Shown here: one piece after another, positions 1,023 to 62,951 of the stretch
How the letters are laid out: every line of letters starts with the position of its first letter
How positions within the stretch are numbered: the first letter of the stretch is position 1
NCBI GenBank assembly: GCA_964036195.1
Contig: OZ038457.1
Location: 23,277,147-23,341,146 of the forward strand
DNA length: 64,000 bases
DNA from: Sphaerolaimus hirsutus
Taxonomy: Eukaryota > Nematoda > Chromadorea > Monhysterida > Sphaerolaimidae
Reading direction: 5' to 3'
Notes under the pieces: generated by a model
Seen by the model: the letters and a program-made list of their open reading frames with translations, nothing else
Told to the model about the DNA's origin: nothing
The model's database searches: none
Made by a program: the position numbers and the translations under genes

Positions 1023-4000
1023 ATGAGTTGGCCATTAATCAGTTATGTTGACTGTGTAGCGGTTTTCACTGGTTTTCTTATGCTTTCAGTTGTTTGTCAA
1101 GAGCAGAATATACAAGAAGATATCCAATCAACAGGTAAACATTTTGTAATTTGTCTTGATTGCACCATGTTAAGTGCCCTTTTAACTAGCAATATTTTGT
1201 TAATTATTTATTATTTATTTATTTTTAACCCACATTATTATCCGTTTTTACTTGATAGACACTTTGTTCGAAAAAATTTAACTTAAAATTGGCCCCACGC
1301 GCTAAATACCTAGTATACGAAATTATGAAAACTGATAAATCGACCTGAATTTACTGGAATAAAAAGTCTGTCAACCACAGTTGACGGGATGTAAAATATT
1401 GTGCCTACACACACTAGTTTTCACCGTGACTTCATGTGAAAACTGAAATTTTTTCAAATGCGAATAAATGAACACGGTTGAATGATTTAATTTAAATTAA
1501 ATTTGAATTTAAATTAATGAAAGTTAAAGTATGAAAATTTGAAAACTAGAACACATATAGCATACGTTAAGAGTAGGCTGAATGTCGCTATGTCGCCATT
1601 TCAGTTTTCACACGTATCATGGACCATGGTGAAAACTAGTGTGTGTAGGGCCAATATAGAAAAATAATATCTTGGTAAACTCAAATGTGTGAAAAACAGC
1701 TTCATTATTTCGAAAAATTCTGCCGTAAACTTAATAGTGTATAGAGCGACATAGTGGTAGTGTGTGGGACCGTAAATGTTTATCATTTTTAACTTCACAA
1801 CTAAGTTAATCAAGCCATGCTGGGTCCAAAAGTATAATGGACAATTGACAAAAGTAGTGACAAGTAGAGACATGTAAGTTGAATGTCAAGTGACATGTAA
1901 ACTTATGAGCATAAAGACAAGTAAATAAACTTAGAATTAAGTGACAAGTAAAAGAAAATGTAAAATCACTGCGACACTTACAATCACTTGACATCCCACT
2001 GAAAACTTCGGCACACACCACCAAAAACGCCACTTTTCCTATCACTTGTCAACTTGTCAAGTCGCCACCTGACCTGTCCGCGTACCCAATCATTGAGAAG
2101 GTAACTCAAGGTACCGCGAAGGTAACTCAACATTGAGCTTGAACGCCACCGATGGCGGCATTTTGTTGCTGCGGCGCAGCGCCGACGCGCGCGACTATGG
2201 CCTGAACATCACCTTGTATGAACCCTGCGAGGAATGGCGAGAGTTTTGGTCAGTTTTGAGAGTGTGAAGGACGTAGACACTGACCCTGGGAGGAAATTTA
2301 GTTCGACCTGAGGCTGAGGGTGATTTTCTGAAGTCAGACGTTTGTAAAATACTGGGCATTTTAATAGATTTTGACCCGAAACGATCTGCGATAAATCTCT
2401 CGATATCTCTACGTGTTATAAATATCTGTATGAATGTCTTAAAAAGTTGAAAAAATGTAAAGCGCAATAATTTATGTCATGAAACCTGTCAAACACTCGG
2501 TAAAATATTTTAAACATTTGTCATGTTACCGGCTTTGGAAGTATCACCAGCTGGGGGCACTCCCAGACCATGTAAAAAGCTCTGTAAAATGTCAAATGTC
2601 ATGGAAAGTGTCAAAAGTCATGGAAAATGCTCTGCAAAATAGGAAACGTACGCTTGCCATCTTGCAGGGCATTTTCCACGACTTTTGACATTTTACAGCG
2701 TCTGGGAGTGGCACCTGGTTGTACAACCAATTCCACGAGCGCAACCCCTTACCTACCCTCGCATTGCAATTTTCGAATTGCCCAAATTTCAGTGGCGCAC
2801 TAGCGCGCGTCCACTTTAACCAACACACCGCAGTCCAATGTAAATAAGCGAATTCAAGCCGCCCTGACCGCAGGATAAAGCACAGAAATGCGAGCGGCAA
2901 CGACACGTCCGAGCCGTACCCGCAGTGGGGCAGCTTGACGGAGCTGCAGCTGAACAACACCGACGACATGCCCCACAGGGAGGTGCTGCTCACCAGCCCC
3001 GAGCAGGCAGAGGACGTGAGTTACCGTATTTCTTATGATCGAAGAGCGTCGTTTTATTTTTTGTGTCTACTTTTTTAGCTGCCGTCATTATTTGGAGGTG
3101 CCGTTCTAATTTTGTCAGCAATTTTTCCACACATACCTACATATTTCATTTGAACATAGTGTGATTTTTATGGAACTTGAGCATTTGTTCAACGTCGCTT
3201 TCAAACCCTTTTTAGTGTCACATTTTTTAGTGTCACATTTGAGAACAATTTTCAAAAAATCTCCAGCAAGAAGTCGATAAATCCATGCTGTATCCAGAAA
3301 AAAGTGGATAAGTCCAAGCGTCAGAGTGTGCTAGCGCTGAGTCGAAACAAACAAAAATATCTATAACAAATGCAAACGGTCGTAGGCGGGATTGAACCCG
3401 GCCATCTTCAACGACTACGACGCGATCAAGTTGAACACGTTCGAAGTGTGCGGCGACCACCCGGAAACATTGTGGATAAACACGACCGACGCGGCTGCTG
3501 AATTCGGTTGGTCACGTTGTAATTTGAATCAAAGGGGCAGTCGTAGACCCTGTAGAATGCTCTGTAAAGTGTCGAATGTTTTGCAAAGTTTCAAAAATCA
3601 TGTAAAATGCCCACGAAAATGTGAAGTCTTGCAAAAAGGCAAAAGTCACCTAAAATTCCTTGGAAAATGTGAGTTGTCATGCAAAGTGTAAAACGTCATG
3701 TAAAATGCCCGGTAAAATGTCAAATGTCATGCAAAGGTTCAAATGTCATTTAAAATACACTGTCAATTGTAAAATGTCATGAAAATTCACAAGTTATGCA
3801 AAAACACCTCGAGAAAGGTCAACCAAACAATCACTCACACCACCCCAGGCGTAGTAGACAAAGTGTTCGACGAGTTCTGCCTGCCCTTCTCCATGTCGCT
3901 GGAGCCGAACGCGGAGCTGATGAACGAGCTGGAGGACCGGTTGCTGCGGCTGGTCGTGGCGGCGGTTGGAATGAACGCTTCCCACGCGGGTGCGCTTGAA

Positions 4001-7000
4001 TTGGGCGAGGGGGCGGCGGAGGGAAAAAACACCAGTGCGGAGAATGGGTGAGTGGCAAGGACGTATCCAGGGGGGGGGGGCGGGGGGTGCTGCAGCCCCC
4101 CCCCCTTCCCGGGGTGAGACCCAAAAAGTCCCGGAAAATGCAACTTTTCCCATATATTTTCCGATGTTTCTTAAAAATTGTGCGCGCAAGCGCGCAATTT
4201 CGTCCCCCCCCCCCCCCATGCATTGTATTTTCAGCGGATCGGCCCCTGTAAACCAATATACTCGGAAATAAAACCCATTTTTGCGATTTTCGCTGTATAT
4301 GTATGCATTTTACATACATTTAAAGCGGTTCCTGGCGTTGGCGCCAACGCCAATAGCGCCATGGAATGGTGCCTTTGTATGGCGCTAGCGCCAAAACGCT
4401 TTTCCGTCCCTATATAGGGAAAAATTTTAGGGGGGGGGGCTGAGCCCCCCCCGTTCGCCGGCCCCCGTAAACAAGCAGCCCCCCCCCGCTCAAAAATCCT
4501 GGATACGTCCCTGGTGAGTTGTCTGCCCCGCCTCAATTGGTGATAAGATGGCGCCATTGCAGGTTGGGGCCGCTTTTCGTGGTGCCATTGTCGCCAGGTG
4601 CCTTTTTTCTGGCGTTTTTCATTGACATTTTCGATACAGCGACACCCAACGTTTTGTCGCGGCTATCGTGCAGACTCATCAAATGTGGGCTGTAATTTGC
4701 TCGTCATGCATTTAATAAAATTATTTCGTTGCCTGGGGGCACTCCCAGACCCTGTGAAATCATAAATGCCCTGTAAACTGTCAAATGTCATGCAAAATGT
4801 CAAAAGTCATGGAAAATGCCCGGCAAAATGGGAACTCTGTTGCCATTTTGCAGGACATTTTCCAGGACTATTGACACTTGCATGACATTTGATGTTTGAC
4901 AGGGCATTTTACAGGGTCTGGGATTGGCAACTAGTTTGTGTCGCGGCCACGCATCACCCCCCTCACAGAACTGCGGCGACGGCCGGCAGCCCAGTTCAAC
5001 TTCGTGTGCGCGTCCGGCGACAAGCTGCAGAGGCTGAACACGAGTCCGAACATGAACATTCCGGCCTCGATTCCACTATCGAACAGGTGAAGAAGAACAA
5101 AAACTTTTTAGAAGTGAGAAGTAAAATGTTAAAAGTGGATTTGATTTAGAGATAAGGAGTCAGAAGAAAAGTTATGAAGTTTAAATACTTCGATTTTAAC
5201 TTTTAACCTCCCATTTCACTTTTCACTAATCGATTTGCTTCTTAAGTCGGTATTTTACTGTATCTTATCTCGATATTATCTCACTTCTCACTTTCCATTT
5301 TACTCCACTCTCAACTTTTTCATTCTCACCTTTAAACTGTCTTTTTTCTTCACTTCCCACTCGCATACGGTCATTAATTCCAGGAGGACTTTATGATCGG
5401 GGACTTGTCGGCGATAAACGTCACCCACGACGACAACAACACCAGGTGCCACTTCCATACCCTGTAAAAAGCCCTGTAAAATGTCACATGTCATGCAAAG
5501 TGTTAAAAGTGATGGAAAATGCCCTGCAAAATGGCAAACGAACGTTTGCCATTTTGCAGGGCATTTTCCATGACTTTTGACACATTTCATGACATTTGAC
5601 ATTTTACAGGGCTTTTTACACGGTCTGAAAGTTCCCCCAGCACGGACTTCCACATCGATCTGAGCAATTCCATCGAGCCCATATTTTACATTTACAATAA
5701 AGAGGCGACTAAAGCGCTGGGCTTGGAAAGCGGCAACGCGTTTGACAGATACCAAAGGCTTGGATTTCATATGGTCGAGATTTGCAAATATGTCGTGCCT
5801 CAGGTTCAGGAGGAGGATGAATTAATGCAGTTTACAGGTGGAAATAAATTTTTAAAATACATATGAGAATTTTTTCTGGCGAAAAATAACCCCCCTCGAA
5901 TAAGCCCAAAATCACAAACCGCGGTATTTCTCGTGTATTTACATTCCGTTTACACTCAATTCGGGTGGGGGCATTTCGAGGGGAGTGGTTTATTATTTCC
6001 ACCGCAAAATTTTAGGGGGTATGTCGAGGGGGGTAATTCCAGATAATACGGTGAATACAAAGTGCATCCAAATCCCAACCCCCTCCATCCCTGCAGACTT
6101 CGACTTGGCCGACAGCAACGTGGGCATCAACGTGACCTTCCTGGTGACCGAGCGTGGCCTGAACCTGAGCGAGATGGCCGAGGTGCTGCGCGACGACGTG
6201 GCCGTCGACGACATCTTCGACGCGCTGCAAGCTTTCCAGGTGCCAGTCCCAGACCCTGTAAAATGCCCTGTAAAATGTCAAATGTCACTCAAAGTGTCAA
6301 AAGTCATGGAAAATGCCGTGCAAAATGGCAACTCGGTTTTTTCCATGACTTTTGACACTTTGCGTGAAATTTGACATTTTACAGGTCACTTTACAGGGTC
6401 CGGGACTGCCCCCAGGTCAAGGCTTACCCGTCCAGCTATCTGGGTCCCCTGTTTGACGCGGTTAGGTATGATCCCCGCTCGCCGCCCACTATATTCAAGG
6501 GTGAGTTGTTGTGGAAATGGATGATGATGGAATGAAATTCAAAATTTTGAGTTGACACAAGTCCCTGGGAATGCATGACGGCGGGATTGAATTCAAAATT
6601 TTCACAAAATTTTGATAGAAAATGGAAGATTTCTAAATTCAAAAACTAATTTTGGAACAATTGTTGAAAACTCATTTTAGACAAAGGATAGAAAAACTTG
6701 ATTTGGTTTACATCTTTCAGCATTGTCATCTTGGAAACAGTCCCGCACCCTGTAAAGTGTAAAGTCAAGTGTCATGTAAAATGTTAATCAAAACAAAAAA
6801 GAGAAGATTTTATTACTGCACTTTGTATGAAAATTGGCAAATTGAATGACATTTCAAATGACATTTGATGCTTTACTTTTCACGATATTTGATGCTTAAC
6901 CTTACACTTTACAGGGCTTATCGACACCTGGATGCCACTCTATAACCCTAACACAGGCCTCTATTTACAGGTCAACCAATCATAGTAAGGACGGGCCTTT

Positions 7001-10000
7001 ACATCGAGTCATTGTCGCAATTCGACACAAAGTCCATGGTTAGCATTTGCGCTTTTGATGCAGCCCAATTGATCGATATTTCTGCAGGTCGTTGGATATT
7101 GCATCGCATCTACAGTATACCGCAAATCCTCGAATAAGACCCCCCCCCCTCGAATTACTCCCCCTTGAATAACTCCCCCCTGTTGGCGAGGTGAGGAAAA
7201 AAAACTCCCCCCTGTTGGCGAGGTGAGGAAAACAAAACTCCCCCCCCCCCTTGAATAACTCACCCCCTCCTGAATAACTGCCCAAGTGTATGAAAGAATA
7301 CAATACAAAATACATATGAATATTAGCCAACGGCAGCGACAGCAGATAAATACATGATGTGTATGCAGTGTACACACATCTTTTTGTTGTTGTGTACAGT
7401 TAAATACCTGAATGACATGAGTTGACAGACTGCGTCAGCAATGATTTGTGTCCAAGTTTTCTGAGGAAAAATAAGTCCCCCCTCAAATAACTCCCCCCTT
7501 TGAATAAGCCCCCCCCCCCCTCAAAAACATCTGACGACAAAATAACTCCCCTGGGGTCTTATTCGAGGATTTAGGTATACTCGAATAATTCCCTAGGAAT
7601 TATTTTTCGTCGAACTTTTTTGAGGGAGGACTATTCGGGGGGGGGGGTATTCAAGAGGGGAAATTATTCAAGAGGGGGGCATTACTCAAGAAGGGGAAGT
7701 ATTCAAGTAAATGCGGTAAATACCATATTACCTAGAAATACCCCGACTGGTTTTATTATTTCGCCAGCAAATTTTGAGGGGGGGGGTATTTCGAGGGTTG
7801 TTAATTTGGGGTGGGTAGGGAGTGGTTAATTCGAGGTAATACGATACTCAGGTATTCATTCACCAATCCAGGACTACGAAATGGACGTGCGGCTTCTAAT
7901 GTCGTGGCGCGACGTGCGTCTGAGAAACAATTTCAGCCACCCCATTCTGATCAAGGACGAGGACGATTTGGGCGGCATTTGGCGACCGGATCCGTTTTTC
8001 GTCAACGCCAAAGACGCCGATTATCACGACGTGACCTTCCTCAACTTCCTGGTGATAGTTTTCAGCGGCGGGGAAGTGTACTGGGACACGAGGTGGGTGG
8101 GGCTCTGTCTCGGTGACGCGTCGCTGTGACTGTTATGTAACTATGGCAAACCCTTTGGAAAAAGTGTTTAAGTTCTGAATTTTTTTAAAAATCGACTTTA
8201 ATAATTTTGAAATTTTGAAATTCGAAATTTTCTGGTGAATTTTGAATACACTTTCATGTTTTACAGCCTTCCAGGCTCATCGCAGATACACCTGCCTTCC
8301 ATGCGCAGATACATCTGCACATTTTTGTTCCGATGCTATACAAAAATCCATGAAAATTGACGTAAGCGTCACCTGAAATATGCATTTTCAACTTAACATA
8401 CAAAAGAATTTTCAAATTTTTGTTTGCCATTTTGCCATCACTAGTGTTATGCGCCGCGACCGCAGGATGCGCCTGAAGCCTTCGTGCAACCTGCTGCTGT
8501 GCAAGTACCCGCACGACGAACAAGTTTGCCTGCTCAAAATGTCCTCCTGTTGGTAGCAATGGTACTAGTTGACAACGACACCAAATGTCAACTGGTCCCC
8601 ATCCCAATTCAAAGCCCGTTCCCTTCGCAGACGCGTACCCAGAGCACCAAGTCAAGTTCAAGTGGTTCACGGACACGAAGCACGCGCTCAGGTCCAATCC
8701 CAAGATACAGCTGCCAGAGTTGGATTTGATCAAACATGACACTGAATCTTGTGATGGCATGAGGGAGACAGGTGTGCGCTGTTAATCTATTCTATTGGCT
8801 CTGCGCTTTGAAAGCGTTGAATTAATAAATCAGCTTTGAAAGCGTTTTGAGTTCACCAGAATCAGGTGTCGGTCAACTACAATGGAGCTAAAAAATAACA
8901 CGTTATTTTAAACTCAATTGCGTTTGAAAGCTGATTTATCAGTTCGACAAATTTTTAAAGTTTTTCGCAGCAAACTAGTGTGTGGAGCGTTGTAAAAAAT
9001 ACAATAAAAAAAGAGTAGAGAACTGTCCCAGAATTACCTTTGTTTCGCAGTGAACTACACTTGCCTCCAAGCAGTGATGTATTTAGAGAGGGAAACCGGA
9101 TTCTACATAGCCCAGACATACGTGCCGACTTCCCTGGCGCTCATGTTCAGCTGGGTGCGTTGTTGGTGATGTTGCGGTGCCATTTAAAGGGCCCAGATTA
9201 GTGATGGAAAAAGCGCCAGACTTTTGGCGCCAAGCGCCCAAAGCGCCATGGCGCTTTTCCGACCCCCAGCGCCAAGCGCCAATGGCGCCAGAGCAAAGTA
9301 GCGCCAAGCGCCAAAAGCGCCATGGCGCTTTTATGAAACTCGGCGCCAAGCACCAATGGCGCCAGAGAGTGATGGCGCCAAGCGCCAATAGCGCCAGCGC
9401 CAAAAGTTTTCTTCTGCAATTCGTTTGTAGAATAATCAATTCGTTATTGTGACATACCGCTGATGTCGCCGTAGTCGATTTAACTTTTGCCATTAAAGTT
9501 TAATCAACCACTACATCATTAAAATCCCAAGGGATACACCTATTTTTCTGCCAAACAGCCATACGATGATAGGTCCTAAATATTGTATCCCATTTAGTCA
9601 TGTTTATTACCAGTTATGGGTATGTAAATACTTATTCTTTACATGATACTTAACGAAAATTCCTGGCGAAATAATAAACCCCTCCCTCGAAATACCCCCA
9701 TCAAAATTTGCACTCGGATAAAAATAAACCCCCTGATGGTGTATCGACCCCCTTTTGCTTTGGCGCTAGCGCCAGGCGCTTTTCCATCACTAGCCCAGAT
9801 CCAATTTGGAGGGCACTGCAATTAACCCGTGTTCGGGCAGTGTCGAGCGGTTCATATCTTTTCAAATTAAATAGAATTAAAATTCATAACTTTTCAAATT
9901 AAAATAGAATTCAAGTTCATACGTTTCAAGTCATGCGTTCGTAAAATTCGATTGCATTATGTATTTGGCAACTAAAATGTGCAACATGTGCAAATAAAAT

Positions 10001-11701
10001 ATAATTTTACATTTTACATGGCATTAAACATAACTTTCAACACTATAAATGGCATTTGACACCTTACACAGTCTGGTAGTAGCACCAGGAGTGCGTCAAA
10101 TTTTGCCCTCCCAATTGGGTCTGGGCACAGCGGGGCAAGCCCTACAAAAACCCCTCACGCACTCAACTCCCCCCCCCGCAGGTGGGCGTGTGGCTGCCCG
10201 AGGAGTTCATGGAGGGCAGGATCGGGGTGGCCATCACCGTGCTGCTCACCTTGTCCACAGAGAGCGCCGGCGCCAGGGAACATTTGCCCGCTGTTTCTTA
10301 CATGAAGGTGGAGTTTTTGGGAGGTTTATGGTAGGGCATTGTCTGTGGGTATTGTATTGTATTGAGATTGGTTTCTGCGGGGTTGGGCTGAAGTGACTTT
10401 TTGTGGATGGAAGTTTGTCAGCGACTGCTCCTCCGTGTATTTGGGGGGGGGGGGGTATTTTTGCCCCAGCTGGTTAAGACCTGGGGTATTCCAAGGGGGG
10501 TCAATTACAGGGGGATAATTTGATGAAATACGGTAGTTACAAAGTTTGCATCTCGAACGCAGGCAATCGACATGTGGTTTGGAGTTGTCATTATTTTCGT
10601 CTTCTTCACGCTGCTGCAAACACTCTTTGTGATCGGATTCGATAGGAAGTCAGAAGTGCTGGTTAGTTTTAGGTACTTGGATGATGACAAATGTGCCGGT
10701 ATGTAATGGCGCCATTTTGCCACTTTTCTGTAGCTACAAAAGTGTTGTCAAGTCAAAGACTAAATTCAGATGAAATTATTTATATACTACATGCCACAGA
10801 CCTTGCAAAGAAATCTACCATTTTACCGGAACTCACTAATTAAATTTTAACTCCACTCTCAGAAACGAGCGGCGGGCAAGAAGGAGCTCAGTGAGGAGCT
10901 TCGTGCCAAGGTGCTCGCCAGGGCGCACAGGTGCTACTCCCAGACTCTGTGAAATACCCTGTACAATGTCTAATGTCATGCAAAGTGTCTAAAGTCATGT
11001 TAAATGACCTGGAAAATGTCAAATGTACGTCTGCCATTTTAGAGGGCATTTTACATGACATTTGTTGGATTTGAGGGTATAGTGGTTTTGGTTAGGGTGT
11101 CAAATTTCCGTTTTCCGTTTTCCGTTTCCACTTTCCACAGGCAATTTTTTCCGTTTTCCGTTCCGTTTTCCGGCAAGAGCAAAAAAATTTCCGTTTCCAT
11201 TTTCCGGCAAGTGCAAAAATTGTTCCGTTTCTGCTTTTCCGCAGGCAAAATTCTTTCCGTTTTCCGCAGGCAAATTTTTTTCCGTTTTCCGTTCCGTTTT
11301 CCGGCAAGTGCAAATATTTTTCCGTTTCCGTTTTCCGGCAAGTGCAAAAAATTTTCCGTTTCCGTTTCCGTTTTCCGTAAAAAATTTCCGTAATTGTTGA
11401 CACCCTAGTTAGTTAGTGCTTTATTGTGTCCTCTTGATGGCTGGTATCACACAGCTATATTGAATCAGATATGGAAGTGGGTGCACAATTCAACCATCAT
11501 GAATCCCAACACATTTGACATTTGACAGGGCATTTTACAGGGTCTGGGAGTGCCCCCAGATACCACAGCAACGCCAGGTTCATGGACAAAGTTTGCCGAC
11601 TGCTCTATCCATTGACATTCGTTATATTTTTGATAGCCTACTTTTTTGTAATCACCACTGGCGCCCAGAACTCGTGTACTTCGCAGTCGATTGACACATA
11701 A
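1023..11701 (+). CDS. Cys-loop ligand-gated ion channel (GluCl/GlyR-like), 19 exons
   Basis: Pentameric neurotransmitter-gated channel subunit of the plasma membrane. Exons: 1023-1134, 2101-2248 (start uncertain), 2874-3015, 3386-3506, 3849-4047, 4969-5086, 5384-5445, 5641-5837, 6097-6239, 6416-6500, 6971-7038, 7872-8092, 8466-8548, 8631-8771, 9051-9154, 10182-10307, 10563-10661, 10863-10930, 11560-11701. Phases agree at every junction and give 792 residues. The start has a signal peptide. The ligand-binding domain has WRPDPFFVNAK and a true Cys-loop (C, 13 residues, C, ending YPHDEQVC). A second cysteine pair (SCDGMRETGVNYTC) resembles loop C of glycine and glutamate receptors. Four membrane helices follow; M2 is GVAITVLLTLSTESAG with the 9' leucine. 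Oddities are an extracellular extension of over 400 residues before the binding domain, and EGR where anion channels have PAR. Introns 7, 9 and 18 are transposon copies. Ligand and ion selectivity cannot be assigned. Confidence 0.9.
1401..1653. mobile_element. TIR element, CACACACTAGTT family, copy 1
   Basis: Starts GTGCCTACACACACTAGTTT and ends with its complement (ACTAGTGTGTGTAGGGCC); the ends pair over about 45 bp with mismatches. A very similar copy lies at 28169-28415. It has no coding capacity. It sits in intron 1 of the channel gene. Confidence 0.75.
2554..2714 (-). mobile_element. Family A introner-like element, 161 bp, TSD CTG
   Basis: Left end GGGGCACTCCCAGACC, right end GGGAGTGGCAC, flanked by CTG on both sides. 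Relative to the gene it is reversed (a CAG target read on the other strand). It lies inside intron 2, so it is not itself an intron. The arms form a near-perfect hairpin. Confidence 0.85.
3537..3790 (+). mobile_element. Family A, one-ended and internally expanded
   Basis: Begins GGGGCAGTCGTAGACCCTGT and continues as several diverged copies of the family's internal unit (ATGTCAAATGTCATGCAAAG-like), with no recognisable opposite end. It lies in intron 4 of the channel gene. Confidence 0.6.
4056..4513. mobile_element. hAT-like MITE (family D), 458 bp
   Basis: TIRs CAAGGACGTATCCAGG and CCTGGATACGTCCCTG; the 8-bp duplication is GTGAGTGG (4048-4055) against GTGAGTTG (4514-4521). The CAGGG-type end and 8-bp duplication are hAT hallmarks. 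The ends are followed inside by poly-G/C runs. The target site was the splice donor of channel exon 5. A second copy of the same length lies at 53081-53539. Confidence 0.85.
4736..4931 (-). mobile_element. Family A element in channel intron 5
   Basis: Left end GGGGCACTCCCAGACCC after CTG, right end GGGATTGGCAAC before TAG (duplication decayed). Its right end is 38 bp upstream of exon 6. The central palindrome is visible near 4830-4860. Confidence 0.75.
5446..5637 (+). mobile_element. Family A introner forming intron 7 of the channel gene
   Basis: The intron 5446-5640 is one element (GTGCCACTTCC to TTCCCC) plus one copy of the CAG duplication (5443-5445 and 5638-5640). Donor CAG|GTGCCA comes from the element; acceptor CCCCAG comes from the duplication. 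Removing it rejoins AAC ACC AG|C ACG GAC in frame. The arms pair along almost the whole length. Confidence 0.92.
6240..6412 (+). mobile_element. Family A introner forming intron 9 of the channel gene
   Basis: Intron 6240-6415 equals the element plus one CAG copy (CAG at 6237-6239 and 6413-6415). Ends GTGCCAGTCCCAGACCC and GGGACTGCCCC. Excision rejoins GCT TTC CAG|GTC AAG GCT in phase 0. Confidence 0.93.
6733..6920. mobile_element. Family A variant (CCCGCACCCTG ends)
   Basis: Left arm CAGTCCCGCACCCTGTAAAG; the right arm is decayed around ACACTTTACAGGGC. The GCACCC subtype is also seen at 34325, 52925 and 58555. It lies in intron 10 of the channel gene. Confidence 0.6.
7118..7577. mobile_element. 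Family E TIR element (degenerate copy)
   Basis: Ends ATACCGCAAATCCTCGAATA and its complement TATTCGAGGATTTAGGTAT, with poly-C/poly-G blocks inside. A second E-like stretch follows to about 7850 (ends GAGGTAATACGATA) and a third degenerate one lies at about 5876-6052. They are non-coding and lie in introns of the channel gene. Confidence 0.65.
9199..9792. mobile_element. hAT-like GGCGCC-rich element (family F)
   Basis: TIR TAGTGATGGAAAA at both ends, with a perfect 8-bp duplication GCCCAGAT (9191-9198 and 9793-9800). The interior is mostly overlapping GGCGCC/GGCGCTT palindromes. About 9655-9755 is an inserted E-type fragment. It lies in intron 15 of the channel gene. Confidence 0.8.
10440..10537. 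mobile_element. Family E fragment
   Basis: Poly-G run followed by GGGGGATAATTTGATGAAATACGGTA, one family E end, 26 bp upstream of channel exon 17. Confidence 0.5.
10931..11556 (+). mobile_element. Family A introner with nested element, forming intron 18
   Basis: Outer element 10931-11556 (GTGCTACTCCCAGAC to GGGAGTGCCCC), duplication CAG at 10928-10930 and 11557-11559. Excision rejoins GCG CAC AG|A TAC CAC in frame. A 315-bp family O element (11093-11407) is inserted inside, enlarging the intron to 629 bp. Confidence 0.9.
11093..11407. mobile_element. Family O element (TTTTCCG-rich), nested
   Basis: Ends TAGGGTGTCAAA and TTGACACCCTA. The interior is a strand-asymmetric run of TTTTCCG/TTCCGTTTTCC motifs. 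It is the same family as 46645-47267 and a degenerate copy at about 28561-28753. Confidence 0.75.
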
Positions 11702-16300: not shown

Positions 16301-19300
16301 TGGCGGCGGGCATGCACAGCGACTGCGGCAGGCTGCACAACAAGTTGGCGCGCACGTCGATGCAGCTCAGCTTGGGCAGCTGGTGGAAGATGTCGGGCAG
16401 CTGGCGCAACGAGTTTCTCGACGCCGACAAAATGCTCAGCGACGCGCAGTGCCGCAGCTGTTTTTTTAGTAGGGCGGCATTTTTTTGGTGGCGAGGTAAT
16501 TTAGCTGCATGGTAAATAATACTGGGGCAGACCCGAGCCCTGTAAAGTCTACCTAGTGTCAATTGTCAAATGTTTTGTAAAATGTCAATAAAACAAAAAG
16601 AAAATATTTTATTACTGAACTTCGAACATTGAAAAATTGTAAAAATTGTAAATCATTTAACACTTGTTTGTCTTTACACATTGGGCCCACACACACTAGT
16701 TTACCAACATGAAATGCTCGACCATTTTGGTAAACTGTTTTGACAAAACAGTACGAAACACTGTACAACTCTGTACAGTGTTTCGTACTGTTTTGTCAAA
16801 ACAGTTTACCAAAATGGTCGAGCATTTCACGTTGGTAAACTAGCGTGTGTGTTGGCTTTGCGGGGTCGGGACTAGCCCCTGAATTCGTGAATTACCTCGC
16901 TGGGTAGTAGCGTCAACTGATTGTCGTCCACGAACAATTGCTGCAGTTGGAAAAGCGACTTAAAAGTGTCCCCTGCCAACTGCTCCAATCTGTTTCCCCT
17001 CAAACAGAGCTGTTTCAAGTTGGTCCACGTAGCGACGCACTGGGACAACTCGGTCAGGAAATTGTGATCCGCGTCGAGACATTCCAGCTCCGGCAGGTGG
17101 ATGTGCTCCATTTGGTTGATCTGGGGTAAAAAAATTAAATTTATAATTGAGAATACCTAAGTTAACATTTCAGTTTAAGGATAAGGTTAGGTGAAGAATG
17201 AATTCTGATGCCAGTTCCGAAAGTGGAAATTAAAAAACAACAACAATTTATAAATGGATAGGAAAAAGTCTAACGCGTATTCTTGTCACTCATCATTATT
17301 CTTCTAACTTTGTACTTGCCATTTTACTTCCCACTCATAATTTACTTTTCTTTTAACTTTTTACTTCTCACTTATAAATGGTCTTTGTTTGGCTACCTGA
17401 TTGTTGGCTACGAGCAGCCACTGCAACTTTGAGCAAATCTGCAGCGATCCTGGCAAAGTTTGCACGAAGTTACCGCGCAGGTCCAGGTATTCCAGCTTGT
17501 CTAAACTGCAAATTGCCTGTAAATACCCATAGGGGGGTTATTCAAGATGGGGGACTTATTCGAGGGGGGGGGGTATTTTTTCCTCACCTGGCCAACATGG
17601 AGGAGTTATTCAAGGGGGATATACGGTACCTGTATCTTACGCGCCAGTGCAACAACGCGATGTTTAGACACACTTTTCAAAATAAAATTTGAAAAAGGCA
17701 GAGTCGAGTAAGACAAACATACGTTTCATACACTATATCGTTTTTTATGGAACAATTTTTATTTTATTAATGATGACGTCATGCTGGAGTATTTCGTTCA
17801 GACAAATCCATAGCATGTGCTAATCCATAGTATAACATACTCTGACGTGAAGAAATGAATACAACCATATTGAAATGGTGTAAAATATACCTGAGGGATT
17901 TCTGTAAGCTCATTCCAAGCCATATCCACGTACGTTATGCTTTCACACTTGGTCAGTGCATTTGATACACATCTCAGACGATTTCTGTTGAGAATCAGCG
18001 TATGCAGTTTGCCCAATTTACTGATTGTCTGCGGTATTTCGCGCAATTGATTCTGGCCGCAATCAAGGTGCATCAAATTGCATAGATTTCCTGTGAATGT
18101 GGATAGAAATTATTATAGAAAGCTTTGTTGCTCTAAGTAAAGTGTAACGACAACTAACTGTTTTAAAAATTGTCTAAATTTCAGGGTGTTTTTTCTACAG
18201 TGAGTTTACGAATTTTCACCAATAAAATTTTCAAAATAAGAAAATTCAAACATCCAAAAATGGCCATTTCCCATCATTACTCGCAGTGAACTCTCAACTC
18301 CCACCAACAAACCTATAGCCTTGGGCAGGGCGGTGATGCCGCACGCGCACAGGTCCAGCTCGGCCAGCGCGGCCAGCTGCGGCACGCACTCCGGCACCGA
18401 ATTCAGCGGGTTTAAGGCCAGACTGAGCCGTTCCAGTTTGCAGCACTGCCGCACCCGGTCGCTCACGTGGCGCAGTTCTGTTGTTTTTTAGTCAAGTAGA
18501 AGCAGTTTGAAATGTGAGATTGTCGCGGTTCACGATTAGCGTTCCAAAACTTGGGTTTTTTCAGGAAATAAACTTGATTATTGAGTCAGAAGTTGTTGTG
18601 TTAGAGGAAAAAATCCTCAAGACAATAAAAGCGATATTTTGTATTTTCTCCGCAGAGTTGATCATCTGACTTTCTCCTAAAGATAACGAAATCGGATTTT
18701 AAACCCCCCCGGAAAAATACAAAAGTCACAAAATTATAGAATGCTAGCCACGGCGGAAGCCTTACCATTGGTGTGGGCGCACAGGGTGGCCAAGTGGCGC
18801 AGGGCGCCCATGTTGTCGTCGATGCACACCAGCTGGTTGTTGGAGATGTCCAGCACCCGCAGCTCGGTGTAGCCGTAGATGAACTGGGTGGAAATGAATT
18901 TGGATGCGAGTAAATATAAGTACCTAGATCGGTATGTAAATATAAACACTAATTTTTCACCTCGCAGGTCACACATGCCTAATGTCAAGGCTCCATAACG
19001 ATTATGCGACGATAGGGTCTGTGTTTTACGTTCGACACTTGATCCCCTGGTATTATAAAGTTACTCTAACGTTTCTTTCAAGTTATCACTTTCAAAAGTC
19101 TAACGTGAATACACTTCGCACCCACGAGTCATTCTACACTTGTGTAGTCGTTGATTGAACTGTAGCAAGTTCAATCAACTTCTACACTGTAAACCGATCA
19201 CAAACAACCGCACCAGCGGCAGTTTAGCCATCTGTCTGCCATCGAAGCGGACGCAGTGCGACTGCAGCCCGCCCAAGGGCTCCACGAGCGCCAGCACGCG

Positions 19301-32621: not shown

Positions 32622-32777
32622 CTATTTTATTTTCCTTTATTTACTGAAGTTGTCCTTAAATTTTGGTTTTACTGCAGAGGTAACCGCAATGGTTTGCTGA
32701 TACACAACATCTGAGAAATTTCAAACACGAATTTCCTTTTCACAATATTATCCTGTATTTGATGCAGCCACTACCAG

Positions 32778-32946
32778 GTGCCACTAACAAACCCTGTGAA
32801 ATACCATGTAAAATGTAATGCCGTGTCAAAAAGGTCGTGTAAATGCCCTGTAAATGGCAAACATTCGTTACCCATTTTACAAAACTTTTGACACTTTGCA
32901 TGCCATTACATTTTACAGGGCAATTCACAGCGTCTGAGAGTGGAAC
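32778..32946 (+). mobile_element. Family A element upstream of collagen exon-1 copy 1
   Basis: CAG|GTGCCACTAACAAACCC to GAGAGTGGAAC|CTG. The orthologous copy in the duplicated block is 36101-36259, so the insertion predates the block duplication. Confidence 0.8.
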
Positions 32947-33090
32947 CTGACATCCCTACAAATATTATTGTTTCAATTTTCGGTAGATCATTTACAGCAC
33001 ACTGTATTGAAAAATACAGCCGCACAGCGGTCGCACACATTAAACCAAAACGACCAACCCCACCTCAACACACAGGCTTCCAAGTACAAA

Positions 33091-33276
33091 ATGGGCGCTT
33101 CAAGCGACAATCGCAGCGGCGGCAAGCCGCAGTGCGGCCACTCAGTCCTGCCGGTGTACATCGCGATCGGCTGCAGCGCGCTCGCCGCTCTGGCCATGGC
33201 GTGCCTGCTGCCCGCCGTCAACTTCACGTTGGGGCAGCTCAACGACCAGCTCAGGGTAGACATTGAGCAAGTCAGG
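33091..33276 (+). CDS. Duplicate first exon of cuticle collagen (copy 1)
   Basis: Encodes [20 protein letters not shown] and onward, 62 residues with a single membrane helix ([20 protein letters not shown]). The protein is identical to the exon at 36404-36589, and the donor GTCAGG|GTAGGT and phase 0 are also identical. The DNA differs at about nine positions, all synonymous. About 350 bp of upstream sequence, including a family A element, is duplicated too. Downstream it runs straight into the second copy of a 556-bp repeat, with no collagen exons until 36962. It could be an alternative first exon of the collagen gene or the remains of a tandem collagen gene. Confidence 0.65.
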
Positions 33277-33289
33277 GTAGGTGGTGTTG

Positions 33290-34492: not shown

Positions 34493-35925
34493 TGTCCACA
34501 AAAAAGCGTATTATATCGGTAATTAATTTGTAACCGGACACATCAATGACAGCTAAATTTACATATTGCATTTTCGTGACATCTTCAAGGGTATTCAAAG
34601 GTACCCTTCAAAGGTGACCCGCCATTCTTCGGACCGATCAAATTTCAGCCACATTTGCATTCCCAAAAATTCGAATGACGCGGCGAGTGATTGCACACGT
34701 TCCCCCGATAGGGCGTATTTTATTTATCCACTGACTCCCAATCTATTTTAGTAATTTAGCATCGCCGCTTGGACACACTTGTCTGTTTTGATTTGATCAG
34801 ATGAAACTGAAGCGACGGAACGCGGATTGACTTGTGCGCGTAACTTTGAATTGAAATTAGCGTTCCAAAAATCTCTGGGCGATTTTTATTTAAAAATCTA
34901 ATTAAATAAAAGAAATCTTATTTAATTATACTTTCTCCAGTTTCTTTTCCAGAGAGATTTAATTATATTTTATTTATGAGAAAAAAATATGATTAAATCT
35001 CTCATTTATATTTTCTCAGCGTTTTTCAGAGAGATTAAATTAAATCTTTTGAGAGATTTTCTGAGATGAAATTTAATTATATTTTTTGAAAATCACCCAT
35101 TTTTGGAACACTAATTGAAATTAACAAATTTGAAAGGCGCTCGCGAGCGGCCGAAACGAGTTTGCCGAAAAAATGCCGTCAAAGCGACTCGAGCGGCGGC
35201 GGGATCAATTTCTCGCCGAAGTGACACATGTAATCTTCGAGGGACACATGTAATCTGCGCGCGGAATGTTTGTTTTCGGACGGCGGCGAGATGGCAGCGG
35301 AGATAGTGACCAGACCGAACCGACGCAATGTCGAACGGCACTGGCGCTGGCAACGAGTATGGCGCCAAGCGCCAAGATAACGCCAGAAGTTGCGCTCTCG
35401 CGGTGCAGCGTGGCTGAAATATCACGATTTAAAATAAAATATGCTCTATCACATATAGAAAAAGTTGGAATTACATAATTAACCAATATTTAGTTGAACT
35501 TAGTTGACACTAATTTTGACGTCAACTAGTGTGTGTGGGCCGATTGGCGAACTGAAGCCGGGTATGGAAAGCCAAAAACATAATTTTAAGCTGGCAGTGC
35601 CATTCGACGCCACTTCAAAAAGTTCATGGCGTTGTGACCAATGCAGTCAAGTCCAGTCAGCGCAACTTACAACGCGCGGGCGCGAAAAATCGCCGAAATT
35701 CGGGGGCGACAATAAAACAAGTGTCAAATTATCGCCGCCGACATGCAAACGTATTTACGGAGGGCAGAACTTAACAGCTGCCGCTCGCTGGAGAACTCAC
35801 TCCATTTACGATAGTTCTCACATTTTCGCTTTTCTTCAGGAATCGGAATGATGCAAATTTTTGCGAGACATGAACAATGCTAAGGCTTTTTAACAAGTTG
35901 CTCCCTACCGTACTTATATTGTTTT
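34493..35925. other. Gene-free spacer with a GC-rich island
   Basis: No supported exon. About 35,125-35,440 is GC-rich against its surroundings and could be a promoter or untranslated first exon; a short ATG frame starts near 35,173 (MPSKRLERRRDQFLAE). About 35,490-35,545 carries one end of a CACACACTAGTT element (GTCAACTAGTGTGTGTGGGCC). About 34,870-35,090 is A/T-rich with repeated AATTAAAT(C/A)T motifs. Confidence 0.35.
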
Positions 35926-36100
35926 ATTTACTGAAGTTGTCCTTACACTTTGGTTTTACAGCACAGCTAACCGCTATGGTTTGTCTGATACGCAACATCT
36001 GAAAATTTCAGAAATGAAATTAGGTAGGCCAACTTTTTCTCGGCCAACTTTTCTCGGGCTTCTCACAATATTATCCTGTATTTGATGTAGCCGCTACCAG

Positions 36101-36259
36101 GCGCCACTCCCAAACCCTGTCAAAGCTGTCATGCCGTGTAAAAAGTCATGTAAACGCCCTGTAAAACGGCAAACGTTCGTTAGCCATTTTACAAAACTTT
36201 TGACACTTTGCATGGAGTTTACATTTTACAGGGCAATTCACAGCGTCTGGGAGTGGAAC
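36101..36259 (+). mobile_element. Family A element upstream of collagen exon-1 copy 2
   Basis: CAG|GCGCCACTCCCAAACCC to GGGAGTGGAAC|CTG, at the same relative position as 32778-32946. Confidence 0.8.
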
Positions 36260-36403
36260 CTGACATCTCTAGAAATATTATGGTTTTAATTTTCGGTAGA
36301 TCATTTACAGCACACTGTATTGAAAAATACAGTCGCACAGCGGTCGCACACATTAAACCAAAACGACCAACCCCACCTCAACACACAGGCTTCCAAGTAC
36401 AAA

Positions 36404-39325
36404 ATGGGCGCTTCAAGCGACAATCGCAGCGGCGGCAAGCCGCAGTGCGGCCACTCGGTGCTGCCGGTGTACATCGCAATCGGGTGCAGCGCGCTCGCCG
36501 CTCTGGCCATGGCGTGTCTGCTGCCCGCCGTCAACTTCACGTTGGGGCAGCTCAACGACCAGTTGAGAGTGGACATTGAACAAGTCAGGGTAGGTGCCTT
36601 TTGGTTGTTGGGGGGTTTTGTGGCTGTAACTTGACACTTTTCCAGGATATTTCAGTGATATTTATATATTTTATTGTAAACATATTTTCTGATATTTCAA
36701 AAATAATTGGAAAATATAAAAATGGATAGATATTGAGGATTGATATTTTCCAGCTTTTCAGATAAGTAGATTTTAAAAAATTAGGTATATTTTCGTTTTG
36801 ACAGATCTTCCTTCAAATTACCCATATTCTCTCAAAATCACCCATTTTTGAGAACGCAACACACCCAAAAATATCCATCACTATTTTTACAGTATCTAGA
36901 TAAATCTAAAACGCGACCAAAAAATTAAACCACCAACCAAACCACCCACTATTAATCCCAGGTGCTCACCGAGCACACCTGGTCCGACCTGATGACCATC
37001 CAGCACAAGCTCCCGTCGGACAAGTCGGCCGCCATAGCGACCCTGCGCAGGCAGACCAGACAGACGCAACTGCGCGACCTCCCCCTGTTCATGCAGGGCC
37101 TCAGCAGGGGCTCCAGGAGGGTGCAAGCCAGTGGGTATAGGGAGGAGCCTATAAGGGCGGGGCCTAATTATGGGGGTGAGTTGGTGTTTTGTTTGAGTTG
37201 TGGTGGCAGTTTTGGAGAGTGTAAAATGTCCTGGAAGATGTTAAATGGCATGGAAGGTGGTTTAAGTTAAAATTATGTCAAATGTCCTGGAAAATGTTTA
37301 ATGTCAGGCAAAGTGTCTATAGTCATGTAAAATGCCCTGTAAAATGTCAAATGTCATGCAAAGTGTCAAAAGTCAAGTAAAACTTCCTGCAAAATGGCAA
37401 ACGTACATTCGCCATTTTCCAGGGCATTTTCCACCACTTTTGACACTTAGGGACATTTCAAAGGGTCTGTGTATCCATGAATAGCTGCAAAAAACACTCC
37501 GCAGGCGCGCAAACGCGTCCGCCGACCGGCCCGGGCGGCTACGGCGAGTCGTTGCCGCCGTACGGCGAGACACCGGAACCCCCACCCTACGGGTCGTTCA
37601 CCACGCCGCCGCCGTGGGGCAGCACGTCGCCGTGGGACAGCATCGCGTCCACGTCGGAGGGGCCGGGACCGGGCGTGCAGACGCCGCCGCCGCCGCCGCC
37701 TCCCCCGCCGCCGCCGCCGCCGCACGGCGGCAGCACGCCGCTGCCCGGCAGGACGCCGCCGCCCGGCCAGCCGTGGAGCACCAGCCGCGTGCCGCCGTCG
37801 TCGCAGCGGACCACCACCGCCGCGCCGCCCGACGACGACTGCGGTCGGTTGGACGTACCTGGCAGTGTTGTAACCCTGTCCTTAATGATGGCTAACAAAA
37901 CAAAGTGGAATAATTTAGCGGGGAAAAATTCAAAAAGTTTGAAATCTATTTTTGGAAAAAAATCCGAAATTCGAAAGGTCATTTTAGAATAAAAACACTC
38001 AAAACTTTGAACAGTTTTTCGGAGGCTTTGCCACCGTTCAGCGTCCAGCGACCTTGACAAAAAATGGACACTTTCGCAGATGAATGCTGCAAGATGTGCC
38101 CACCTGGACCGCCGGGTCAACCGGGCATGCCGGGAATGGACGGCATGCCGGGCGACTCGGGCAAGCCGGGCGACCGCGGCGCAGAGTACCACTGGACTCC
38201 TGTCAGTTTGGCACTTTGACGTTGCTCAAACATTGCGAGTGAAATGATGATGACATGCCAAAAACACGTCGACTGCGCAGATATTCGCTTGCCCCGACTG
38301 TTACCCTGGTCCGCCAGGGCCGCCGGGCGCTCCGGGACTGCCCGGACAGCGCGGCGTGAAGGGCTGCACGTCGTTCCCCGGCACGCCCGGCATGCCCGGC
38401 AAGACGGGGCCGATGGGACCAGACGTGAGTTGTCTCCTATGTAGAACACCGTTGTAGAACATCTCGTACATCCAGAGTTTTACTTTTTCGAAAGTGTATT
38501 TACGTTTACCCAAAATACCCAAGTATTTCGGGTATTGATAATTCGGTCGTCTTTCAAAAAAATACTCAACATTCAACAACTGCGTGCGCACGTTCGCAGG
38601 GCGAGCCGGGCGGCGCGGGCAGCCCCGGCAACAGAGGACCGCCGGGCCCGCCGGGCTTGCCGGCCATCGCCTACAGACCCGGCTACCCGGGCGAGAAGGG
38701 CAACCCCGGCGAGCGCGGCAACCCCGGCCCCACGGGCAAGTGCGGCGACAACGGCAGTCCTGGTGCGTCGCTGCGCTGCGGCACTGTTGTCTTCACTGTG
38801 AACTGTAACACGTTTCCCTGCACGCAGGCGATTACGGCGACCGCGGCTACGAAGGCTTCGGCGGCGAACCGGTGAGTACCCCACGTCAACTGCGGCTCAA
38901 TGGCGGCCAACACAGTAGTTGACACATGTGTGTCAACTGGTTTGTGTAAACTCAGATTTCGGCTTCGCGTGTCGCAGAGCCATCTCCAACTGGACCTGCA
39001 CAATAAATATTTTGAAGCATTGGAAGATCGCTCTTGGACACGAAAAGCCGAAATCTGAGTTGACACAGACCAGTTAACACATGTGTCAACTAGTCAACCT
39101 GCTCGTGAGTAGACCGAAAAACACACGCGAACACGCACGCAGGGCACCGACGGGCGGCACGGCTATCCGGGCGAGCAGGGCAGGTCGGGTCCGCCGGGCA
39201 AGGACGCCAACTACTGCCCGTGCCCGGACAGGAGCGGCGCGCAGCAGGGCGGCACCAGCCAGGGCTACCCCAAGCCCGACCCGACGCCCGACGCAGGGCA
39301 GAACTATGCCGCCTGGGCTCAGTGA
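36404..39325 (+). CDS. Cuticle collagen, 8 exons
   Basis: Structural collagen of the extracellular cuticle. Exons: 36404-36589, 36962-37175, 37505-37843, 38080-38201, 38281-38424, 38600-38762, 38828-38871, 39143-39325, all in phase. The N-terminus is a short cytoplasmic segment plus membrane anchor, then a conserved non-collagen segment ([15 protein letters not shown]) like the nematode cuticle-collagen N-domain. Basic sites (LRRQTR, SRGSRR) could serve subtilisin-type processing. Exon 3 is Pro-rich with a run of 13 prolines. Exons 4-8 encode interrupted Gly-X-Y blocks separated by cysteines ([17 protein letters not shown]). The end has [13 protein letters not shown], the cysteine cluster typical of nematode cuticle collagens, then a non-collagen tail. 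A second, upstream copy of exon 1 lies at 33091-33276. Confidence 0.92.
37215..37470. mobile_element. Degenerate family A element in collagen intron 2
   Basis: Repeated ATGTCAAATGTCATGCAAAG-type units and a right arm ending AAAGGGTCTGTG; the terminal motifs have decayed. Confidence 0.6.
38910..39104. mobile_element. Palindromic element in collagen intron 7
   Basis: Arms TAGTTGACACATGTGTGTCA and CTCAGATTTCGGCTT on the left are mirrored by AAGCCGAAATCTGAG and ACACATGTGTCAACTAG on the right, about 60 bp each side. Confidence 0.7.
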
Positions 39326-39988: not shown

Positions 39989-40176
39989 GTACCAGTTCCA
40001 GACCCTGTAAAGTGCCCTGTAAAATGTCAAATGTCATGCAAAGTGTCAAAAGTTATGGAAAATGCCCTGCAAAATGACAACTCGTTGCCATTTTGCAGGG
40101 CATTTTCTATGACTTTTGACACTTTGCATGACATTTTACATTTTACAGAGCTTTTTACAGGGTCTGGGAGTGCCCA
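39989..40176 (+). mobile_element. Family A element, intergenic
   Basis: CAG|GTACCAGTTCCAGACCC to GGGTCTGGGAGTGCCCA. The central palindrome GCCCTGCAAAATGACAA with its complement is clear. It lies outside any gene I can support. Confidence 0.8.
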
Positions 40177-41976: not shown

Positions 41977-42144
41977 GGGGCACTCCCAGACCCTGTAAAA
42001 AGCCCTGTAAAATGTCATGCAAAGTGTCATGGAAAATGCCCTGCAAAATGACAAACGTACGTTGCCGTTTTGCAGGACATTTTCCATGACTTTTGACACT
42101 TTGCATGACATTCGACATCATTTTACAGGGTTTGGGAGGGGCAC
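41977..42144 (-). mobile_element. Family A element, TSD CCG
   Basis: CCG|GGGGCACTCCCAGACCC to GGGAGGGGCAC|CCG. This shows that the 3-bp duplication need not be CAG or CTG. Confidence 0.85.
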
Positions 42145-43614: not shown

Positions 43615-46600
43615 ATGGATGGGATGTTGAACGTGGCGCTGGTAACGATGCAGGCGTTGTTCTGCGTGATCATCAGGGACATGCTGTTGCCGCTGCCTGC
43701 GACCACAGCCTGGTGCCAATCCCAGACCCTGCAAAAAGCCCTGTAAAATGTCAAATGTCATGGAAAATGCCCTGAAAAATGGCAACCGAGTTGCCATTTG
43801 GCAAGGCATTTTCCATGACTTTTGACACTTTGCGTGACATTTGACATTTGACAGGGCTTTTTAAAGGGTCTGGGAGTGCCCCCAGTAGTGTTTCAGCTGC
43901 GCTTGGGTTAGTGCCGCAGTCCGAATTTATCATTTTCCACCTTCGTCAACCGTAGTTGACGGATTTCTCATTCCAGTAAACTTAAATGATTTAAATGATT
44001 TATCAAAGCTGATTTATCAGTTTCCGAAATTTCGGATAGGTAAATATTCTTTTTAAGCTAGAGTACGTGGGGCTGGGGACATTAACTCAGAGACAACGAA
44101 AAAGTGTGCATACAGGTATTTGCTTGAATAATTCCCCCTCGAATAGCCATCCCCAAAAACTGTGGCAAAAAATAACACCCCAGGGGAATTATTCGAGCAA
44201 ATACTTTAGTTTCAGCGCAGGCCGAGCGTACTGCAGCTGGCGCGCGACGTGTTGCTGTGCGGCACGAGCCTCGTGTTGGCCGTCACGCTGCTGTTCGACC
44301 AGCTGCGCGCCCTGTCGTTTCTAGTCTTGCTCGCCGGCGCTTTGACAGCTGTCGGTTGGTTCGATCGAGTAAATTCGGTGTCCTTGTCAACTAGCACGTG
44401 TAGGAATTGCCATAGCAGCGACCTCGCAGGCCGCCTGTGCACGCTGGCGTACAAACTGGGGCCGTGCGGCGGCGAGCGTTCGCGCGGCCTGTGGGCGGCG
44501 GCTATGTCGCAGCGCTGCAGCGGCGGCAGGCGGCCGTACCACCTGACCGTGCTGCGGTCGCTGCTGCTGCTGATCACGTGCACGGTGATCCTGGTGCCAC
44601 TCCCTGACCCTGTAAAAAGCCCTGTTAAATGTCAAGTGTCATGCAAAGTGTCAAAAGTCATGGAAAATGCCCTGCAAAATCGCAAACGTGCAGGGCATTT
44701 TCCATGAGACTTTTGACACTTTGGATGACATTTGACATTTTACAGGGTTTTTACAGGGTCTGGCAGTGCCCCCTGGCCGTGGACTTCGTGCCGTGCTTCC
44801 CCAAGTCGTTCCGCAAGCAGTGGTCGTCGGGCTACGCGCTCATGGACGTGGGCGCGGCCAGTTTCGTGCTCATGGCGGGGCACTGCTCCAAGCTGGCCGC
44901 GCACGGCACCGGCTACAGGTGATCAATGGATTAAGGCATTGATAACAGCGTCCGCTGATTTTTTATTGATTTTTAAGCATTTGGCACAATTCCAGCATTT
45001 TTAGAGTCTTCTATTGGAGATCGCTTTATATTTATTTACCTATTTCGCCCAAAAGGTGTATCTTTTAGAAATACGGTATTTTGATAAGTTTCCGAAATTT
45101 GGGCCGCAAACTAATGCGCTAATAGTGACACTAATAAAATACCTAAATACCTATGTGAAATGCGCGCGTCAGGAATCTTCCCTGGCGACGGGGCGTGCGC
45201 AATGTGGCCGTGCTGTCCACCCTGGTGCCACTCCCGAACCCTGTAAAGTGTTAAATGACATGCATTGTGTCTAAAGTCATGTAAAATGTGATACAGTGTC
45301 AACATTCATGTACAATGTCATGTAGTATCAAAATTAATGTAAAATGTCCAGTAAAAAAGGTTGACATTTTACAAGGCATTTTACATGACATTGACATTTT
45401 GCGGAATCTGGGCGTGGCCCCTGGGCGCTTGCAGAGTCGCCCTGCTTTGGATCAGTGGAAAGCACGAGCACGAGATCGTTTATGGGAAGCACTGGAATTT
45501 TTTCTTCACATTGACCACTGTCGAAGTGCGTTGTATTTACGATGATTGGTTGAACGGTAGCAACGACTCACTACCATATATCCTCGATTAAGTCCCCCTC
45601 GAATAACTCTCCCCTGTTAGCTGACTGAGGAAAAAATAACTGCCCCCCACGAATAACCCCCCGAATAATATATGATAGGTCTTTTTCAGATAATGTCAGT
45701 GTCTGTCAACTGCTGTTGATGGAGAGTAAAAATAACTTATTACAGTTAACTCAAACCTCAAATATATGATCTATTGGTTTTCCAAATTTGTAATTTCGGC
45801 AGAAAACCAGTGGATTTCAGAGAAATGTGTTCAAATTACTTTTTCTGGTACAGGCTTCCGCCCACTTTTTGGCCATATTCATAAATTTGCGACGTTTCTG
45901 CGCAATAGCGGCACTTCTGCTGGCATTCTGCCAACAATATGCACTCTCTAATGGGCTGGGCGACGTGATCGTGAAAGGCATCGATGGAACCGACAAGTGA
46001 GCCTCCACTTTTTTCTAAAAAACAACCACAAAATGTTCAATTTTTCAAAAACCGCTCCAATTTGCCGACAACTTTGCACAGAAGAGAGTCATTCCTCGAC
46101 GCCAATCGGGAAGCGCTCCTAACCCTACCCGGAGTTCTATCGCTCTACTTTGCTGGCGTTTGCGTGCGCCGCTGGCTGTCGCCCGAGTGCCAGTCCGAGC
46201 CCAGACCCTGTAAAATGTCAAATGTCATGCAAAGCGTCAAAAGTCATGTAAAATGCCCTGCAAAATAGCAACTCGGTTGCAATTTTGCGCGGCATTTTAC
46301 ATGACTTTTGACGCTTTGCGTGACATTTGACACTTTACAGGGTCTGGGACTGGCCCCCGAGTCGTCCTTCGGCGGCACAGACTCGGGCGGCACGGGCGGC
46401 GCGGCAGAACTGGATACGATGCCGGCGCGGCTCTGGCAGCTTGCCAAGTGCGTCTGGTGCACGGCGGGCGCGCACTCGCTGTGCGTGTTGGCGCACCAGC
46501 TGCAGCCGGCCTCCAGGCGACTAGCCAACGTGACGTTTCTCTTGTGGATTGTGAGTGGACATGCGCCAATTTCGCAAGTGGAGACGTAAAAAAAACATTT

Positions 46601-54839: not shown

Positions 54840-54840
54840 T

Positions 54841-62934: not shown

Positions 62935-62951
62935 GTAAGTGAACTGCTCGG

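Follow-up and report, generated by a model that had tools for sequence, protein, structure and literature searches.

A palindromic element with CNG targets that probably functions as an introner in a nematode

The window is the whole stretch of 64,000 nucleotides that was analysed, and its main features are given in Table 1. An LGC-45-type ligand-gated ion channel gene is spliced in our model from 3386 to a stop after 11698, with every phase in register; the 5' part of the gene is outside the model. Two of its exons match the Pfam ligand-binding and membrane domains of neurotransmitter-gated channels. A search of 5.8 billion proteins, with 7994 candidates scored, gave 37 matches. Nematode names are attached to 34 of the 37 (two names are incomplete), and the other three are unnamed metagenome proteins. 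One homologue is called LGC-45 by its source, and those covering 98-99% of the query are 39-43% identical. In a tree of 26 rows the window sequence falls outside Plectus and the other main-group nematodes with support 96/93, but its place within the nematodes is unsure because of a long branch and a program warning. A nematode-type cuticle collagen lies at about 36.4-39.4 kb; it is marked by CCxxCPPGPPG ... YCPCPDR, which we take to be the motif of such collagens. The preliminary description suspected a nematode host, and the channel homologues, the cuticle collagen and the tree all agree with it. No tRNA was found in the window.

The other genes that matter here are a PIGW gene, a leucine-rich repeat (LRR) gene, a FAM210 gene and, at about 50600-54840 on the minus strand, a gene whose nitrilase and HIT domains come in the same order as in the nitrilase-FHIT (NitFhit) fusion gene. 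There is also a duplicated segment, 32627-33283 and 35914-36596, with 86% identity. Within it are exon 1 of a cuticle-collagen-like gene and a single divergent copy of the element described below, and the open reading frame is retained in both copies. The element is common to both segments, so its insertion predates the duplication.

Table 1. Positions of the channel gene, the probable introner copies and other complete element copies in the window (a slash marks the join between two exons or two parts of a motif)
Feature	Positions	Strand	Remarks
LGC-45-type ligand-gated ion channel gene, modelled part	3386-11701	+	676-aa model, 16 exons
Target CAG, left copy	5443-5445	+	Closing 3 bases of upstream exon
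Probable introner copy 1	5446-5637	+	192 bp palindromic element; GTGCCA start (predicted 5' splice site), TTCCCC end
Target CAG, right copy	5638-5640	+	Gives AG of predicted 3' splice site; exon restarts at 5641 (CACGG)
Probable introner copy 2	6240-6415	+	Element 6240-6412 plus CAG 6413-6415 equals whole modelled intron; ..QAFQ/VKAYP..
Probable introner copy 3	10931-11559	+	Element ends at 10931 and 11556, plus CAG 11557-11559, equal whole modelled intron between M3 and M4
Probable introner copy 4, NitFhit	54583-54764	-	Element 54586-54764, divergent, plus CAG
PIGW exonic copy	44594-44775	+	CTG duplication; GT start, CTG end; splits conserved IL/AVDF
PIGW exonic copy, divergent	45225-45423	+	CTG duplication; splits L/GxxR; no simple in-frame AG at end
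PIGW exonic copy	46187-46360	+	Target CCG or CCGA; no simple in-frame GT-AG at element ends
PIGW copy	43713-43882	+	First base is modelled 5' splice site of longer intron; flanks CTG and CAG
Complete copy	41977-42144	-	Apparently non-coding DNA; CGG duplication on both sides, own strand
Complete copy	2554-2714	-	Outside modelled exons, antisense to channel gene; CAG on both sides, own strand
Complete copy	4736-4930	-	Within ordinary channel-gene intron, antisense; flanks TAG and CAG
Complete copy	39989-40176	+	Downstream of collagen gene; flanks CAG and CAT

The preliminary description counted more than 20 copies of the element in the window, and this holds up. With the copies at 5446 and 6240 as queries BLAST gives 34 merged regions, and a single copy sometimes accounts for two of them. 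A 23-position end motif matches 44 sites at 18 or more positions, and none in 20 Markov resamplings. Both ends can be paired in 16 copies, of which 15 are independent because 32778 and 36101 share the duplicated segment. Regions among the 34 that are interrupted or have one recognisable end were left out of the counts of complete copies; examples are 3534, 6734, 10010, 19467, 23794, 34438, 37219, 48547, 52925-53602, 57559-57969, 60345, 61041 and 62950. Two of the regions, 57559-57969 and 62950-63214, are element copies that have apparently expanded into internal tandem repeats, as their BLAST matches overlap.

Fourteen paired copies were aligned in one direction and a consensus was built from nine core copies. 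It measures 189 nt and is nearly palindromic: over 181 nt its two arms show 96% complementarity. The symmetry ends four bases short of the termini, leaving GTGC at one and GGGG at the other. The element is short and without coding capacity, and it has terminal repeats and a target duplication, which are the marks of a MITE. Identity to the consensus is 87.6-94.9% for the nine core copies, 87% for 46187, 78-80% for 32778 and 36101, and 63-64% for 45225 and 54586. The more divergent pair, 32778-32946 and 36101-36259, has two ends that are alike (GTGCC or GCGCC...GGAAC), while core copies read GTGCC...GCCCC. The C-rich right end, which suits a 3' splice site well, may have arisen later. The family was at first called active or recently active. 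We do not find this shown, given the divergence of the core copies and the fact that no transposase was noticed in the window, short of a full scan with transposase models. The short copies themselves encode no DDE transposase or Myb/SANT protein. No exact match to the pattern of the element ends turned up in a collection of prokaryote genomes. A single match in a viral contig lacked any surrounding similarity and was taken as chance.

The flanks of the paired copies support the earlier claim of CNG targeting. Identical 3-mers flank 8 of the 15 independent copies (p = 2e-11). CAG or CTG is duplicated on both sides of seven, in line with a CWG target, and CGG on both sides of one; the remaining seven have unequal flanks. 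The CGG and CCG targets fall outside CWG. It is tempting to argue for a target duplication from the intron flanks, but this argument is confounded and we reject it. CAG also stands on both sides of 3 of the 11 ordinary introns of the channel-gene model, so flanks of this kind are weak evidence alone. The better evidence comes from the copies that are not GT-AG introns, where the 3-mers on the two sides agree in 4 of 11 (p = 1.8e-5). At three independent copies, 32778, 43713 and 58557, the flanks differ in the middle base only, with CAG on one side and CTG on the other. This is either mutation or a mismatch tolerated at integration.

The introner argument begins with copy 1 in the channel gene. 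Read directly, the intron 5446-5640 consists of a single element and a single duplicated CAG and nothing else, as the preliminary description had it. The site reads ..AACACCAG/GTGCCACTTCC....AAGTTCCCC/CAG/CACGG.., with the element running from GTGCCACTTCC to AAGTTCCCC. Excision joins ACC AG/C ACG in phase 2 and the frame is kept. If the copy were retained there would be an in-frame stop 19 nt into the element. Folded together with the right CAG, the RNA is predicted to form a hairpin of -125.7 kcal/mol (z -20.6), and none of 200 shuffles was as good. Among 19 homologues the downstream side of this junction aligns (IDxxD). Upstream of it lies a linker whose length varies, with a gap in one homologue (P0017), and conservation is absent from the residues immediately before the junction. 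The exon preceding 5446 was for this reason tested by profile. Scored against 14 homologues as a profile, the model that includes the exon reached 751.3 bits, the best of five variants. The four variants that omit the exon or shift the frame of the preceding one were rejected, since they scored 737.7-743.4 bits, 8 to 14 lower. In the places of VRVRRQ and EDFM in the model, relatives have a basic stretch (RVxxRR) and an acidic one (DW).

Copy 1 is not alone. Four of the 15 independent complete copies coincide exactly with a whole canonical GT-AG intron, in frame, and in the channel gene, where three of them lie, the protein predicted after splicing aligns with its homologues, as the introner claim would have it. 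At 10931 the exons read ..LARAHR/YHSNAR.., which is the position of KAxRYHKTGRYLD in most relatives. The alignment there is gapless in all 18 rows that reach the junction, out of 19 homologues (P0030 ends earlier). Nested within copy 3, at about 11065-11510, is an insert of roughly 450 bp that is unrelated to the element. At 6240 (QAFQ/VKAYPSSYLGP) the rows of the 19 homologues vary in length by one or two residues next to the junction. The predicted protein matches its homologues across the three junctions, very clearly at 10931 and less so at 5446. Removal of copy 4 joins MRWRGSRLLQFAVRPAVSRYCSRRQ/SGSATMHKVAVCQMNCG in frame, with an ATG at 54839, in what would be the N-terminal leader of NitFhit. 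Most of 14 aligned homologues have such a leader but its sequence is not conserved, which makes a coding role at copy 4 less sure than in the channel gene.

Three channel-gene copies begin exactly at a donor, of seven counted in the region, and p = 4e-7 under a null model in which copies are placed at random in the gene's ordinary introns. Retention of the exonic copies would bring an in-frame stop in 7 of 7 and a frameshift in 6 of 7; the surrounding exons are nevertheless open. The GT end is upstream in all seven exonic copies (sign test p = 0.008), with the caveat that an antisense exonic copy might be missed because exonic copies were recognised by their reading frames. All 8 exonic or donor copies begin with GT, and so do 5 of the 7 others, a difference that is not significant (p = 0.2).

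We argue that the element is very probably a nonautonomous MITE, NuwaI-like in its end structure, that functions as an introner. A transposase encoded elsewhere would insert the palindromic element of about 190 bp into CNG, mostly CAG, and duplicate the target. After a sense insertion the upstream target copy and the GTGCC end would make CAG/GTG, a 5' splice site, and the CCCC end with the downstream target copy would make CCCCCAG/, a 3' splice site. Splicing would then take out the element with one target copy and restore the original mRNA exactly. Only the sense direction puts GT at the edge, which fits the orientation of the exonic copies. The long hairpin may also draw the exon ends together, as parts of PMC7789003 propose for the introners of Amoebophrya. 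From the sequence we infer, and strongly, that the RNA is spliced at the element ends and that the exon was formerly uninterrupted. The enzyme that moved the element was presumably a transposase of the NuwaI type.

All ten modelled exons of the PIGW gene are open and the joined protein matches Pfam GWT1 (2.4e-65). The motifs split by 44594 and 45225 are uninterrupted in 16 of 16 aligned PIGW homologues, and exact removal of these two copies yields the conserved protein. The targets of 44594, 45225 and 46187 are CTG or CCG and so supply no AG. To be spliced, these three copies would need a shifted or non-canonical 3' end. A canonical exit at 44594 pairs the GT at the start with a GGCAG ending 9 nt before the end of the duplication, and adds CPL in frame. 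The frame-keeping canonical pairs at 45225 and 46187 gain or lose more residues or lie off the element ends. The idea that other targets are generally rescued by an additional GT or AG lying 6 nt in from the ends was rejected, as it fits 44594 alone. In humans, TG does serve as a 3' intron end, but according to part of PMC2374985 it was found in no case without an alternative AG within 28 nt. One can imagine that certain of the exonic copies, the PIGW ones in particular, are unspliced and damaging insertions in a broken allele or gene. This would be compatible with an introner elsewhere, and the want of a clean AG at 45225 and 46187 speaks for it. A broken gene sits badly with ten open exons and a joined protein that still matches GWT1, and 45225, at 64% identity to the core consensus, is probably no fresh copy of that subfamily. 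We regard the idea as possible but doubtful.

Another scenario is that the introns are old. A CAG-preferring MITE would have hit the intron edge, and the original intron sequence would have been lost later, so that the element is now the intron. Copies do occur inside ordinary introns of the same genes, some of them tens of bases from a donor: 3534 sits 27 nt from the homology-supported donor at 3507, and by eye 16524-16878 in the LRR gene sits 17 nt from its donor. The first base of 43713 even coincides with a modelled donor, that of a longer intron. However, four independent introns would each have had to shed all of their original sequence, on both sides and to the base. Against it, too, are 44594 and 45225, which interrupt motifs that all 16 aligned homologues have intact, and whose CTG duplication is no ordinary GT-AG intron end. 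We think an old origin of these introns quite improbable. Spread by reverse splicing at the RNA level, as proposed for fungal introner-like elements, rather than by a DNA transposase, would account for element ends that equal intron ends in four cases, but it is hardly credible for a family that has long terminal inverted repeats, duplicates 3 bp of its target and has inserted in either direction, with some copies outside introns. That such copies exist had been noted before and is confirmed, for example by 41977-42144. Their ends are of the same type as those of the intron copies, and this speaks for a DNA transposon.

It is worth comparing the element with known systems. Huff, Zilberman and Roy in 2016 reportedly described MITE-like introns in Micromonas and Aureococcus that have target duplications and terminal repeats, as here; the duplications are said to be longer than ours and the hosts are algal. 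The introners of Chrysochromulina are alike in that the element carries the 5' site and the target gives the 3' site, as the legend of Fig. 2C in PMC9860276 puts it. They differ, to judge from the same parts of that paper, in 4-bp duplications, no evidence of inverted repeats and an algal host, against 3-bp CNG duplications, very long inverted repeats and a nematode here. Amoebophrya introner elements, as parts of PMC7789003 describe them, share inverted repeats, short direct repeats at the intron edges, hairpins and partly non-canonical ends with ours. That system has many splice-site types and no family-specific inverted repeats, whereas here there is one main family, and the clear cases are GT-AG.

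The element also resembles NuwaI, a PHIS (PIF/Harbinger-like) group of animal transposons, in its end structure. Parts of PMC4482050 give it a 5'-CWG-3' duplication and ends that are usually GGG. The element here shares the CWG duplication; one of its ends reads GGGG and the other GTGC, and its targets also include CGG and CCG. The hosts listed in those parts of the paper are 16 genomes of fish, beetle, crustacean, mollusc and anthozoan; the stem 'nematod' is absent from its main text, and those parts name no introner function. By its ends and target our element is placed next to NuwaI, as a candidate member of that group.

The origin of new introns is an old question, and introners are the answer for algae, some other protists and fungi. 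Among animals, parts of Gozashti et al. 2022 (PMC9860276) report introners in only two groups, and the stem 'nematod' is absent from the main text of that paper. Literature searches on introners and on intron gain in nematodes listed no nematode introner, and a larger 2025 survey by Gozashti, cited in PMC12768974, may include one. A Meloidogyne paper was dropped as a source on 'intron creation' since the phrase is confined to its reference list. A survey of 168 introns gained in Caenorhabditis found no source for them, according to part of PMC9169325. At the present locus the probable source of the introns is visible, and there are several events in one gene. What would make the insertion spliceable is the transposon's own target preference, and the case would show in an animal how new introns arise. 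CAG, CTG and CCG targets within one family also offer graded cases for testing which insertions the spliceosome removes.

A bolder reading can be put forward as a tentative one. CAG is both a favoured last exon triplet and a favoured intron end, so a CWG-targeting transposon of the NuwaI type would be ready-made for intron creation. This nematode lineage would then be gaining introns in bulk. CTG insertions might be spliced at TG or at a nearby AG, in which case any sense CWG insertion would be tolerated. If this is true nematodes would have a visible source of new introns.

Two further copies were considered as introners and rejected. The copy at 3534 in the channel gene would have its donor 6 nt inside the element, but homologues end the exon at 3506, 27 nt ahead of the element. 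The first donor of the 676-aa model is probably wrong, with about 11 extra residues near 3534. In the LRR gene the copy at 16524-16878 (minus strand) was rejected because GAG/gtaatt and acag/CTGCGG give regular repeat spacing by eye; precise excision would nonetheless preserve the frame. At 57969 in the FAM210 gene, on the minus strand, an element begins by eye 12 nt past a good donor (AAG/GTGAGTGGGCAG/GTGCC), so that two nested donors may compete. Two other kinds of repeat were seen by eye. One, at 5900-6060, 7130-7830, 17540-17620 and elsewhere, has TCGAATAAC-like phrases followed by long C runs, and inverted forms of it occur too. The other consists of degenerate arrays around TTTTCCGTTTTCCG at 11090-11400 and 46640-47270, one of which is nested in copy 3.
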